From: a virus
DNA: 25,946 nt
Strand: one strand, 5' to 3'
IMG/VR virus record: IMGVR_UViG_3300008110_000815
Coordinates: 1 to 25,946 of that record
The position numbers and the translations under genes are program-made. The notes below the pieces were generated by a model that saw only the letters and a program-made list of their open reading frames with translations, did no database searches and was not told the DNA's origin. Positions 5,358 to 23,321 of the stretch are shown piece by piece (the first letter of the stretch is position 1; each line of letters opens with the position of its first letter).

Positions 5358-5849
5358 ATGGCAGAACTACTAAATCCAAACGAAATTTTTGCAACAGCAT
5401 TTGAACCAAAAGTTAAAAATAGGTTCATCTTGTACGCTGATGGCATTCCATCTTTCATCATCAAGAAAACTGATAGACCAAAATTGAGTCAAACAGCAAA
5501 AGAACTTGACCACATCAACATTCGTACCTTCTATAAAGGTAAGAGTATTTGGCAAACAATGGCGATGGAACTGTATGATCCAATTGTACCAAGTGGTGCT
5601 CAAGCTGTAATGGAATGGGTACGGTTACACCATGAATCTGTTACCGGTCGTGATGGTTACCAAGACTTCTATAAGAAGGATTTGACTGTCAATGTTCTAG
5701 GTCCGGTAGGCGACAAAGTAGAAGAGTGGAGTCTACGTGGATGCTTTATCACTGAAGCTAGCTTTGGTGAAATGGACTGGAGTGACGATGGTAGTGCTTT
5801 AACAATTAGTTTGACTATTCAACCAGACTATTGCGTGCTTCAATATTAA
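5358..5849 (+). CDS. 19: Tail tube protein, T4 gp19-like
   Basis: 163 aa, the same length as T4 gp19. The protein stacks as hexameric rings to form the inner tail tube through which DNA passes. Sequence features match the family: a short N-terminal helix (MAELLNPNEIFATAFEP), beta strands around NRFILYADGIPSFIIKK, a central WQTMAMELYDPIVPSG, and a C-terminal strand set ending LRGCFITEASFGEMDWSDDGS then LTISLTIQPDYCVLQY. There is a leader with an SD-like site and a strong terminator behind it, so it is transcribed as its own short unit. Codon choice is less AT-biased at third positions than in the neighbouring genes, consistent with high expression. Confidence is high because length, strand pattern and context agree. 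Confidence 0.9.
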   Translation: MAELLNPNEIFATAFEPKVKNRFILYADGIPSFIIKKTDRPKLSQTAKELDHINIRTFYKGKSIWQTMAMELYDPIVPSGAQAVMEWVRLHHESVTGRDGYQDFYKKDLTVNVLGPVGDKVEEWSLRGCFITEASFGEMDWSDDGSALTISLTIQPDYCVLQY

Positions 5850-6863: not shown

Positions 6864-6870
6864 GTTATGA

Positions 6871-7587
6871 GTGACGAAATTTACATCCAACCCTTTATCA
6901 AAAGGTGTAGTTGAGATGAAATTTATGACTGCAAAAGAAGAAGATATTCTTACTAGTCCAAATTTGTTAAAAAAAGGATTAGCAGTTGATAAACTTCTTG
7001 AGTCACTTATAGTGGATAAGTCAATTAACTTGGATACATTATTATCAGGGGATAAAAATGCATTAATATTTGCTGCACGGCGTTTGGCGTATGGGGATAA
7101 CTACGGTCCCCTTGACATTCAATGTCCTAAATGTACAACTAAAAATAAAGTAAATGTAGATCTTGCGCAAATTCAGAACAAATCGACAGAACCTGAACTA
7201 ACCGTAGATGGTAACAATGAATTTACGTATACACTACCTGCAAGCAAGTTCGTGGTTACATTTAAACCATTAACTTCTGCTGACGAAAAATCGATTGAAC
7301 GAGACAATCTAGCTCTATCTAAGATAAAAAAAGATTCTTCTAGTGAAGTTACCGGTAGACTTAGATATATGATTACCAGCATTAACGGTGAACGAGACAA
7401 AGGTAAGCTTAAAGCTTTGATTGAGAATTTATTTGCAAAAGACAGCCTATCTTTAAGACAACATATTAAGTCGGTTACCCCAGATATAGACAGTAGTTTT
7501 AACTTTGTATGTGAACAATGTACACATGAAGAAAGGGTAGCCGTACCAATCACGGCCCAATTTTTTTGGCCTGACACCGGAGTATAG
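6871..7587 (+). CDS. 26: T4 gp26-type baseplate/tail assembly protein with Cys4 zinc-ribbon
   Basis: 238 aa. It matches the T4 baseplate family to which gp26 belongs: an N-terminal helical region with LLESLIVDKS and DKNALIFAARRLAYGDNYG, then a first cysteine pair CPKC (Cys85, Cys88), and a second pair CEQC (Cys214, Cys217), which together could bind zinc. The family acts in assembly of the tail hub and baseplate. The start is GTG at 6871; an ATG at 6867 is out of frame and stops after 15 codons. The gene ends TTTTTTT-GGCC...TAG, and the +1 frame stays open through the next small ORF, which ends just before the tape measure gene. That is the arrangement of tail assembly chaperones made by programmed frameshift, so this may be the short, unshifted product. 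Confidence 0.7.
   Translation: MTKFTSNPLSKGVVEMKFMTAKEEDILTSPNLLKKGLAVDKLLESLIVDKSINLDTLLSGDKNALIFAARRLAYGDNYGPLDIQCPKCTTKNKVNVDLAQIQNKSTEPELTVDGNNEFTYTLPASKFVVTFKPLTSADEKSIERDNLALSKIKKDSSSEVTGRLRYMITSINGERDKGKLKALIENLFAKDSLSLRQHIKSVTPDIDSSFNFVCEQCTHEERVAVPITAQFFWPDTGV
7561..7567 (+). promoter_or_regulatory. Candidate programmed +1 frameshift site (run of seven T)
   Basis: In the zero frame the codons read CAA TTT TTT TGG. A tRNA on the second TTT can re-pair perfectly with TTT one base forward. The +1 frame is then open from here to the TAA at 7793-7795, joining the two ORFs into one product of about 307 residues. Confidence 0.45.
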
Positions 7588-7594
7588 ACTCCAA

Positions 7595-7795
7595 TTGCAA
7601 GAAATAATCTTTGATATGTGTTATTATGGAAACGGTGCGTTTTCGCCTATCATAGTTTACTCTTTGCCTATCTATTTAAGAAACTTTTATTACAAAAAGC
7701 TTATCGACGTTAAGACCAAAGAAAATGATGCTGCAAAAAAATCAAGTCAGTCTCCTCAACGTTCTAACAAAATAGATAAGCCAAGTTTTAAATAA
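7595..7795 (+). CDS. Small ORF downstream of gp26-like gene; probable C-terminal extension made by frameshift
   Basis: 66 codons from a TTG, or 60 from the first ATG at 7616. The sequence is QEIIFDMCYYGNGAFS, then SLPIYLRNFYYKKLID, then a Lys/Ser/Asn-rich tail. It starts 7 bases after the TAG of the upstream gene, has no ribosome-binding site, and its frame is open back through the T-run at 7561-7567. It lies directly before the tape measure gene, as the T part of lambda-type G/GT tail assembly chaperones does. I therefore think it is mainly translated as a fusion with the Cys4 protein and helps chaperone the tape measure protein. The alternative is independent translation by reinitiation at TTG. 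Confidence 0.55.
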   Translation: MQEIIFDMCYYGNGAFSPIIVYSLPIYLRNFYYKKLIDVKTKENDAAKKSSQSPQRSNKIDKPSFK

Positions 7796-7815: not shown

Positions 7816-10311
7816 ATGGCAGCAAATCCAAATAACGTAGATAATAGCATAAGTGACGCTATCAAGTCTCTAGAAAAATTACGTGGAAGTACACAGGCGT
7901 ATGTGGAGACTTGGGATGATGTAGGTAAGAAGATTAAAAATGCATTTAATCCTATTATTAATATAAATAAAAGTATCGAAGAATCACAGAAAAGACAAAT
8001 AGCTTTACAAGTTGAAATAACTAAGCTAGAAAAGAAGGTGAGACCAGGTGTTCTTGATAGCAATTCTTTAAAACTAAAAGGTGCAAAAGATCAATTAGCA
8101 AAAGAAAAATCCATTGAAGACAGCAAACACATACAGTCTCAATTGATAAAATTAACAATTGATGGTATTAAAATTTTATTGAAATATTATGATCGATATG
8201 ATGTATTATTAAGCGAAAACGCTAAATTACAAGGCACATCAAAGGACGAAATACACAATCAATACAAAGCCGTACAAACTCTTAATAAATCAATTGATTC
8301 AAATAAATTATCTAATCAAGAAATTTTATCAACTGTTACTGCTATACGTAAAAATTACGACGCAATCGCTTCAGACGCGTTGATAAAAATTGCAGACGGC
8401 GCAGCTGCAATATCTCGGGCAACTGGTTTATCTGCGGATGAGTCTGCCAAATTTTATGAAACAATGGCTGAAATCGGAGGCACTAGTCTTCAGTCACAAA
8501 AAAATATGGAAGGAATTGCTAACTTGGCAGCAAAAGCGGCGGGAGTTCCTCTTGGTAAGTTAATAAAAGATGTTGCGAGTGCATCGACGGGTGTACGTTT
8601 AATTTTTAAAGGAAATACAACCGAACTTATTAAACAGGCAGCCGAACTCAGAAAGATAGGATCTAGTTTAGATAATGCTGCTAAATCCGCTGAAAGTCTT
8701 TTGAGTTTTGAATCGTCAATTGGTTCTGAATTAAAGTTAAGTGCTTTATTGGGGCAAAATATTAATTTTAATGAATCTCGTAGACTCTTTTTTGCTGGTA
8801 AAGTTGTAGAAGCAGAAAAGGCATTACAAAAAGAATTAGAAAGAGTCGGCGATTTAGATAAATTAAATTATTTTCAACGTAAAACTTTAGCAGAAGCAAC
8901 AGGCAAAGACTTTTCAGAGTTACAAAAAATTCAAACACAGAAAAAGAGTCTTTTAGAAGCCGAACGTGAATTTCCGGAATTGGCAAAAGAAAGACTAAAA
9001 GCGGAAGATGATCTCGCTAAAGTACAAAAGTCGGCGTCTGAACAAAGAAAAGAAGAGCTTGCTTTGATTTTAAAAACGAAGATTGCAGAAACTCAGGTTA
9101 AACAAATAGAACAAGCTAGAGCCGAAATATTCTATAATTTTGGTCGTATACTGAAACCAATTGTAGATTCTATAACAAAAATAGAATTATCCGTATTGAG
9201 ATTTATTGGATCTATTACAAGTGCGGGTAATGATACTGAAAAATTAGCGTATATTATTATGGGAAGTGTTACTGTAATGATTGGTGCGTTTTTCTTATTA
9301 CAGAAAGGAGCTTCGGTCGCATTAAATGTTCTTTCTTCCGGTCTAGGAAATGCAGCTGCATCCGTTGGCACCGGAGTTGGAAACGGTTTGAGTAACGCTT
9401 CGCGTGGCATTAGTACATTCGGAAAGGTATTGGCTGGATTTCCTATGAGTGCAATTGGAAAACTAGCATTAATAATGGGAATTTTAACCGTGTCTGTTAT
9501 CGGAATGGCATATGCCTTTAGTTTACTAGGAAACACCAGCGTTGGCCAAATACTTGCATTTTCAGCCGCTTTAGTAATATTAGGAACTTCATTAGCCATT
9601 GCCGGTGCATTATTGACCGGTCCACAAATTGTAGGCGTATATTTGTTTGCTGGTGCATTAGTAGTATTAGGAGTCGCTGCAATGGAGATGGGATTTGCTA
9701 TGAAAATGGCAGGGCCGGCGTTAGAATCTATAGGTAAAACATTAAGTACATTGGCAAGTATCGTGGGTGGAGTAATTATAAAGGCATTTGATACCATGTT
9801 ATCGGTATTTCAATCATTGCCGTCTGTTATAACAAGTGTAGCTACAAGTTTGGTAACAATATCAAATATTGGATTTGTAAAATTAACAGCTGCAGCTGCT
9901 GGGGTGACATCTTTATCGACCTCAATAAAGTCTTTGGGTGAAAATCTTATAAATTTTCCAATAAGTCAACTTACTAATATGGTTTCACAATTAACATTAT
10001 TGAGTCAATCTGCAGATGGTTTGTCATTTGCTGTAAATTCTTTGAAAGACTTATCGGCCATGGATTTACCAAGTTTGGATATGAATCTAAAGGGCGCGGA
10101 AAGTTTATCAAAGTCAGCTGAATCTAAAGAAAAACAAACGAATGAACTAAAAGAAGGACTTGCGGTGGTTGCGCAAAAAATTGAATTATTAACATCATTA
10201 ATGTCAAATGGAGGTATTGCTGTAAATCTAGATGGTCAACGTGTTAACGCTGCTTTATCAAAAGTATCTTATAGATCAGGCGGATTTGGTCAATCAACAT
10301 CTCTAGCTTAA
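7816..10311 (+). CDS. Tail tape measure protein
   Basis: 831 aa. The tape measure protein sets tail length and is threaded inside the tube. The N-terminal half (about 1-470) is rich in predicted coiled coil (LEKLRGSTQAYVETW; ELAKERLKAEDDLAKVQK; KIAETQVKQIEQARAEI). The middle has a block of hydrophobic, Gly/Ala-rich segments near residues 477-497, 547-570, 578-600 and 606-630, as tape measures have for contact with the host membrane. A coiled-coil-like C-terminus follows (SKSAESKEKQTNELKEGL). Length, composition and position after the chaperone-like pair and before tube/baseplate genes all agree. It corresponds to T4 gp29 in role, though I cannot show homology by eye. No protease or lysozyme motif is evident. 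Confidence 0.75.
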   Translation: MAANPNNVDNSISDAIKSLEKLRGSTQAYVETWDDVGKKIKNAFNPIININKSIEESQKRQIALQVEITKLEKKVRPGVLDSNSLKLKGAKDQLAKEKSIEDSKHIQSQLIKLTIDGIKILLKYYDRYDVLLSENAKLQGTSKDEIHNQYKAVQTLNKSIDSNKLSNQEILSTVTAIRKNYDAIASDALIKIADGAAAISRATGLSADESAKFYETMAEIGGTSLQSQKNMEGIANLAAKAAGVPLGKLIKDVASASTGVRLIFKGNTTELIKQAAELRKIGSSLDNAAKSAESLLSFESSIGSELKLSALLGQNINFNESRRLFFAGKVVEAEKALQKELERVGDLDKLNYFQRKTLAEATGKDFSELQKIQTQKKSLLEAEREFPELAKERLKAEDDLAKVQKSASEQRKEELALILKTKIAETQVKQIEQARAEIFYNFGRILKPIVDSITKIELSVLRFIGSITSAGNDTEKLAYIIMGSVTVMIGAFFLLQKGASVALNVLSSGLGNAAASVGTGVGNGLSNASRGISTFGKVLAGFPMSAIGKLALIMGILTVSVIGMAYAFSLLGNTSVGQILAFSAALVILGTSLAIAGALLTGPQIVGVYLFAGALVVLGVAAMEMGFAMKMAGPALESIGKTLSTLASIVGGVIIKAFDTMLSVFQSLPSVITSVATSLVTISNIGFVKLTAAAAGVTSLSTSIKSLGENLINFPISQLTNMVSQLTLLSQSADGLSFAVNSLKDLSAMDLPSLDMNLKGAESLSKSAESKEKQTNELKEGLAVVAQKIELLTSLMSNGGIAVNLDGQRVNAALSKVSYRSGGFGQSTSLA

Positions 10312-22483: not shown

Positions 22484-22933
22484 ATGAGTGGATTCAGTTC
22501 ATCTGAAAAGAAAAAACTGTTCTCCTTGTTTGAAAACATCAAGGAGGGTGTTGGAAATGAAGGACTTAAAAAGTCTACCAATTCTGACATCCTCCTTGTT
22601 GATGGCCTTAATACTTACATTAGAAGTTTTATGGCCATTCCTTCACTCAATGAAGATGGACTACATACTGGTGGTATTGCTGGATTTTTAAAGAGTATTG
22701 GATATGCAATTAAATTGCTTTCTCCTACCCGAGTTATTATTGTATTTGATGGTAAGGGTGGTAGCCAAAAACGCAGAAAGATTTATCCAGATTACAAAAA
22801 TGGTAGAAAGACAGATATTAAACTTAATCGTAATTATGAAGAATTATCTTCTTCACAAATTGAATCGGTTAATTTTAAGAAAGAATTGATTCGTACTGTA
22901 AATTATTTAGATACATTGAGTAATGGAAGGTGA
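22484..22933 (+). pseudogene. rnh: Flap endonuclease / T4 RNase H-like gene, N-terminal half
   Basis: 149 codons. It covers the first third of the 5'-nuclease family after a 30-residue N-terminal extension: ILLVDGLNTYIRSF with the catalytic-site Asp40, GGIAGFLKSIGYAIKLL, VIIVFDGKGGSQKRRKIYP with Asp89, and YKNGRK. In intact proteins this leads on to the central region carrying the EADD and SxDxDF motifs, which hold the remaining metal-binding acids. Here the frame reads VNYLDTLSNGR and stops instead. The matching C-terminal part follows in another frame with the centre missing. T4 RNase H removes RNA primers from lagging strands; this copy should be inactive as it stands. Confidence 0.75.
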
Positions 22934-23321
22934 TGTAAGTGATAATATTCCGGGATTAGATGGCGTTGGATTGAAAAGAGTTGTTAAAGCATTTCCTTTT
23001 CTTGCTAACGAAGATCAATCGTGTTTGCAGCGGATATACAATTATTCAGAAAATTACAAGAATAAATATAAGATTTATGAAACTGTATTAGACAATAAGT
23101 TATTACTCGCGCGTAATTATGAATTGATGCAGTTACATAATACACAAATTCAATCTTTTACACAACTTCGTGTAGAAGAGATTATCAATACTCCTGTCAA
23201 GAAGATTGATAAAATTAGTTTCTCTAAACTAATTACAGAAGACAAAATGTGGAATAATATCCCCAATTATCACATTTGGTTAAATGAGTGCTTTGGCAAA
23301 TTAAATAGTTTTGTAGAATAA
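22923..23321 (+). pseudogene. rnh: Flap endonuclease / T4 RNase H-like gene, C-terminal half
   Basis: 132 codons from ATG. It opens exactly at the helix-three-turn-helix motif of the 5'-nuclease family, GDVSDNIPGLDGVGLKR (Asp4, Asp7), and continues with KAFPFLANED, a helical YKNKYKIYETVLDNKLLLARN segment and a C-terminal tail. The frame is +1 relative to the N-terminal half and overlaps it by 11 bases. By comparison with the family, on the order of 100 residues between the halves, including EADD, are gone. Both halves read as well-conserved protein, suggesting a recent deletion or an assembly error rather than slow decay. The junction is about 22916-22922. Confidence 0.7.

Follow-up and report, generated by a model that had tools for sequence, protein, structure and literature searches.

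In phage lambda, the tail proteins gpG and gpGT are made with a -1 frameshift (Xu 2004; PMC5009743), and a 2016 review of recoding describes G-T frameshifting as widely conserved 'except T4' (PMC5009743). The proteins gp26 and gp51 have since been published as tail assembly chaperones (Vladimirov, Gautam and Davidson 2022, Virology 566:9-15; via PMC10885494 and PMC12846349). According to these two citing papers, the 2022 study also reports that some T4-like phages have a short and a long gene rather than shifting, and that poly-T sequences are the -1 signals in T4-like genes for the short form (TAC-N). As the citing papers present it, both the assignment to this family and shifting by -1 are already known. 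The chaperone genes of the Vandenendeviridae and Andersonviridae, which have a GTTTTT motif, also shift -1 (PMC12846349). Shifts of +1 have been described in other phage structural and tail genes. For example, Listeria phage PSA shifts on proline codons in the genes for its capsid and its tail shaft rather than in that of a chaperone, and a tail gene of the haloarchaeal virus HSTV-2 is described as very likely +1 (PMC5009743).

The sequence considered here is a stretch of viral DNA of 25,946 nucleotides (IMG/VR record IMGVR_UViG_3300008110_000815, positions 1 to 25,946), referred to below as the window. All of the features of the chaperone locus are on the + strand. A gp26-like gene for the short tail assembly chaperone, TAC-N, is read in the zero frame at 6871..7587. 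Its product matches PF12322 (T4_baseplate, the gp26/gp51 family) from 2 to 219 of the 219 profile positions (E=1e-14), a significant match along the profile length that reaches E=2.6e-16 in the own-genome search, and it also matches phrog_150 (E=5e-17). The gene lies between a gp19-like tail tube gene (5358..5849; phrog_4542 tail tube, E=7e-26; PF06841, E=2e-4), the presumed partner of the T domain described below, and a long ORF (7816..10311), the presumed tape measure gene and chaperone client. The latter identity is presumed from position, length and gene order, and the ORF had no significant match in Pfam. The order tail tube, TAC, T and tape measure is the same in Flavobacterium phage immuto, where the next long gene is annotated as tail tape measure protein.

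Some other features of the window and its relatives can be noted here. The window begins with collagen-like GSSGTSG repeats (1-345) of a tail-fibre-like protein that runs off its start, and a group 1 glycosyltransferase gene (PF00534, 2767-3789) is present within the tail gene region. The related contig L002 has, at about 975-1919, an extra HNH-type homing endonuclease-like ORF, recognized by eye from the translation, between its tail tube and cytidylyltransferase-like genes; this ORF is absent in the window. A 5'-3' exonuclease is encoded in two different frames that overlap briefly, its N-terminal part (PF02739) at 22484-22933 and its C-terminal part (PF01367) at 22923-23321; this is either a split gene or an assembly indel.

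The gp26-like ORF ends with ...CAA TTT TTT TGG CCT GAC ACC GGA GTA TAG, the TAG of the short product being at 7585..7587. The stretch CAA TTT TTT TGG (7558-7569) includes a run of seven T (7561-7567), one of three such runs in the 26 kb. The +1 frame has a TGA stop at 7538..7540, which is the upstream limit for a shift in the window, and is open from 7541 through a small ORF to a TAA at 7793-7795. The part of it that would be read after the shift (7568..7795, GLTPEYRLQLQ...PSFK) is the C-terminal, T-like domain (TAC-C), which is homologous to a domain in the relatives; the domain, or the small ORF alone, gave no match in Pfam or PHROGs. The original prediction, made from this one sequence, was of a probable programmed +1 frameshift by which the gp26-like protein and the small ORF ahead of the tape measure ORF are fused. 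Its sequence details were confirmed by re-reading the letters, and the comparative evidence strongly supports a programmed shift. From the sequences compared, we predict with high confidence that a programmed +1 frameshift at YUU_Y makes the long tail assembly chaperone from the gp26-like gene and the T domain. The window resembles the Vandenendeviridae/Andersonviridae locus in having poly-T at the 3' end of TAC-N and a T-like ORF before the tape measure gene, but the predicted direction is +1, unlike the -1 of those families and of lambda. No sequence match between the lambda proteins and the window chaperone came up.

The comparison covered 305 loci with a recognisable gp26 gene, taken from 28 close relatives, four wider IMG/VR scans and phage records, and the frame of the downstream domain was assigned with a domain profile. 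By this profile, 210 loci encode the T domain in the +1 frame and 90 encode it in the -1 frame, and none was ambiguous. Five were unclassified: four are truncated at the end of a contig, and the other, Alishewanella phage Slicko, has no Phe-Phe site. The +1 type includes the isolate genomes Mel-JY01, immuto, SP-15 and LIS04. All 210 of the +1 loci have at the site a YTT codon with T or C as the next base, i.e., the RF2-type YUU_Y sequence on which a P-site tRNA can re-pair in +1. Its commonest form is TTT TTT TGG (163 loci), followed by TTC TTT TGG (18), TTT TTT TAC (10) and TTT CTT TGG (10), and the remainder are single variants, including TTT CTA, TTT CGT and TTT CAC. Phage immuto has the TTT CTT TGG form. 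Because the site and the overlapping frames are kept in all 210 relatives, the arrangement is not due to chance.

Removal of sequences more than 90% identical left 140 non-redundant +1 loci, in which the site is 3-6 codons upstream of the gp26 stop. The P-site codon is TTT in 130 and CTT in 10 (elsewhere in the genes, TTT and TTC make up 78% and 22% of the Phe codons), although the site finder picked YTT_Y by rule, so that the codon counts are slightly favoured and the codon bias figures are indicative only. The constant flanking TGG CCT and the distance to the stop indicate that the finder located one and the same place in every locus. The A-site codon is TGG in 126 of the 140 loci, and in these the 12-nt block TTT YTT TGG CCT, which is TTT TTT TGG CCT at 7561..7572 in the window, is near-invariant (93-100% per position). 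Gly-Leu is encoded right after the slip in all 126, upstream of nearly all of the possible starts. Stops in the relatives bracket the shift to 17 nt, with the upstream limit of the +1 frame no more than 5 nt from the P-site codon and the gp26 stop no more than 12 nt from it.

Seven T are present in 117 of the 140 loci; 17 have runs of just three or four T, with both ORFs still in the +1 relation. The original prediction had rested on the T-run and expected that its loss, with both ORFs persisting, would count against a shift. The overlapping frames are conserved as expected, and the exact run is not. Those relatives that have lost the run all keep YTT followed by T or C, which redefines the site and does not refute it. 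Judged by these sequences, the seven-T run is the common form of the +1 site, not its essence. Immediately upstream of the P-site codon stands a TTT in 129 of the 140 loci, though a +1 slip does not need TTT there; weak E-site pairing at TTT 7561-7563 and its equivalents possibly aids the slip.

The mechanism that we propose is as follows. Standard translation would produce the short chaperone (TAC-N, gp26-like). A minority of the ribosomes would shift instead: with YUU in the P site, bound by a Phe (or Leu) tRNA, and UGG in the A site, the P-site tRNA would slip +1 onto UUY; in the window, the tRNA on TTT 7564-7566 would re-pair on TTT 7565-7567. Reading would then continue in the +1 frame to give the long chaperone (TAC-NC), whose C-terminal domain is linked, through the -1 type, to the end of T4 gp51. 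If the lambda gpG/gpGT pair is a guide, the tape measure protein may be a binding partner of both forms, and the long one may bring in the tail tube subunits. The G/GT-type frameshift of the window TAC is seen at the sequence level, where the comparisons show the homologies, the conservation of the frames, and the place and direction of the slip; its occurrence and efficiency in cells, like a chaperone role for the products, are inferred.

The proposed slip is like that of RF2 (prfB), where the P-site codon of CUU_UGA re-pairs +1 on UUY. However, RF2 has a stop codon in the A site and an upstream Shine-Dalgarno sequence, whereas the +1 loci have UGG (Trp) or UAC in the A site, and no Shine-Dalgarno sequence was seen: an SD-like motif at the RF2 spacing occurs in 10 of 126 loci, which is not above the background of 272 of 2520 (longer windows). 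Such motifs are seldom found ahead of the tape measure gene either, and SD sequences are scarce before the genes of the group generally. Downstream RNA structure is weak at the +1 loci (mean z -0.64 versus -0.23 for the control) and stronger at the -1 loci (mean z -1.73). More structure at the -1 loci than at the +1 loci or the controls would be expected if the mechanisms differ.

The alternative that survives best, though we think it very unlikely, treats the small ORF as a gene in its own right, with a non-ATG start or with re-initiation after the gp26 stop. The earliest start-like codon of the window ORF, TTG 7595, is seven bases beyond the gp26 stop, and in two relatives, L295 and L301, a separate T ORF has its own ATG shortly after that stop (MENIDNLL... 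and MNIDRFL...), while the slip site is lost or unusable. However, 22 of the non-redundant complete T ORFs have no ATG, and seven have no ATG, GTG or TTG. In 61 of the 140 loci the first ATG is a Met 32 codons in, in the middle of the domain and inside a conserved motif, and the conserved T residues start upstream of the gp26 stop. An SD-like motif accompanies a nearby start-like codon in 2 of 50 loci (again, SD sequences are rare in this group anyway), and a separate gene leaves the conserved slip codons unexplained. A small ORF with its own ATG had been named beforehand as evidence against the frameshift; it was found in those two of about 300 relatives, where it is a derived exception, apparently a loss of frameshifting within the +1 clade. 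The example of L295 and L301 means that some lineages can dispense with a covalent fusion.

Two other explanations are less likely still, and about equally so. The original prediction had allowed for '+1 (or -2)', and a -2 shift of the kind reported for phage Mu, made on the T-run, would reach the same frame; the seven T of the 117 loci would let tRNA-Phe re-pair two bases back. The site variants TTC TTT TGG, TTT CTT TGG and TTT CTA favour the +1 half of that wording, since they fit a single P-site +1 slip and speak against both a -2 shift and transcriptional slippage; with the TTC TTT, AAC TTT and CTT sites, -2 is incompatible. Eight non-redundant loci (with TTC TTT TGG, AAC TTT CTA, TTC TTT CGT or GAG TTT TTT) have a non-UUY codon two bases back, and at the CTT sites a Leu tRNA would have to pair with UUC two bases back. 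In the other explanation, it is the RNA polymerase that slips, so that a base is added to or lost from the mRNA at the T-run; most loci offer a homopolymer of seven T for this. Bacterial transcriptional slippage usually requires longer runs than three or four T, yet the 17 loci with such short runs keep both ORFs in the +1 relation, with which this explanation is incompatible. As a cause of the frame change, a sequencing or assembly error within one continuous gene, which the apparent 95-base gap at the 5' end of this same gene might suggest, has a negligible probability, and the comparative data already refute it, the frame relation being the same in 210 independently assembled sequences, including the isolates Mel-JY01, immuto, SP-15 and LIS04.

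As for that gap, about 95 bases are missing from the window at 6881/6882 relative to contig L001, which is 100% identical on either side, and a gap of the same length matches them in the alignments of L002 and L003. The missing bases include roughly the first 37 gp26 codons; their loss breaks the gene at its 5' end and shifts the ATG at 6867 into another frame, and the real start is therefore not 'GTG 6871'. The gap is either an assembly gap or a real deletion; the frameshift region is unaffected by it. A fusion of 307 residues, originally expected as the full product, is consequently too short, and the predicted products of L001 are 271 and 340 aa.

In 88 of the 90 loci of the -1 type, which is found in KVP40, cyanophages and jumbo phages, there is a slippery heptamer T_TTT_TTC (T_TTT_TTT in one); the other two are L295 and L301. 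The window does not have a canonical -1 heptamer (X_XXY_YYZ) leading into a T domain in the -1 frame, its T domain being in the +1 frame. Profile comparison links the T domain of the +1 type to that of the -1 type (96.8%, E 2.6e-10), and the latter to the C-terminus of T4 gp51 (92%, 6e-7). The direct comparison of the +1 T domain with the gp51 C-terminus was not significant, and the link runs via the -1 type. T4 gp26 and gp51 both belong to PF12322, which implies that the short form (gp26, TAC-N) and the long form (gp51, TAC-NC) are two genes in T4. The window and T4-like gp26/gp51 therefore share the PF12322 family and the short/long output. However, T4 has two paralogous genes and -1 shifting is what has been described for other T4-like groups, whereas the window lineage is +1.

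The model of the L001 short protein (pLDDT 88) matches gp26-like viral proteins in a BFVD fold search, including those of SP-15 and Aeromonas phage 25 (gp26). PDB fold searches with the predicted short protein and with a T4-type gp51 gave no significant match; the HK97 tail chaperone 2ob9 was ranked sixth, with the highest probability in the list (0.30) but E=1.3, and is no more than suggestive. A PDB sequence search with the profile found nothing.

A tree of 49 gp26 domains, in which long branches are a caveat, places the window lineage together with Mel-JY01, immuto and LR756508 in one well supported clade (27 rows, 100/98). The +1 phages SP-15, LIS04 and SagM-GXN1, whose recorded hosts are Bacillus, Listeria and Streptococcus, respectively, are outside this clade and near the -1 jumbo phages. 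The hypothesis that all +1 phages form one clade is rejected (p-AU 4e-5, subject to the same caveat of long branches). Allowing for the long branches, the tree would require at least two changes of frameshift direction. Therefore, one conserved Phe-Phe site in the chaperone gene of the T4 superfamily has probably switched direction at least twice, being -1 at U_UUU_UUC in some lineages, and +1 at YUU_Y both in Firmicute phages and in a large clade that is mostly uncultured. Further departures would be the two paralogues of T4 and the separate T ORF of L295 and L301, with the long/short output retained in all except possibly the last two. A literature search, in which Vladimirov 2022 was represented by the papers citing it, did not find the +1 clade or the switching of direction described, and both the large +1 clade and the two or more switches appear to be new.

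In conclusion, T4 has long been cited as an exception, and these results imply that its superfamily shares the logic of a short and a long chaperone, while the decoding route is changeable within it, from shifts of -1 or +1 to duplicated genes or a T domain on its own ORF. A practical consequence concerns annotation, since the T domain is missed, shortened or labelled hypothetical in Mel-JY01, immuto, SP-15 and LIS04. The near-identical natural sites would suit the study of what sets the direction of slippage. The set includes a +1 site without a stop codon or a Shine-Dalgarno sequence, and the known hosts of these phages include Flavobacterium.
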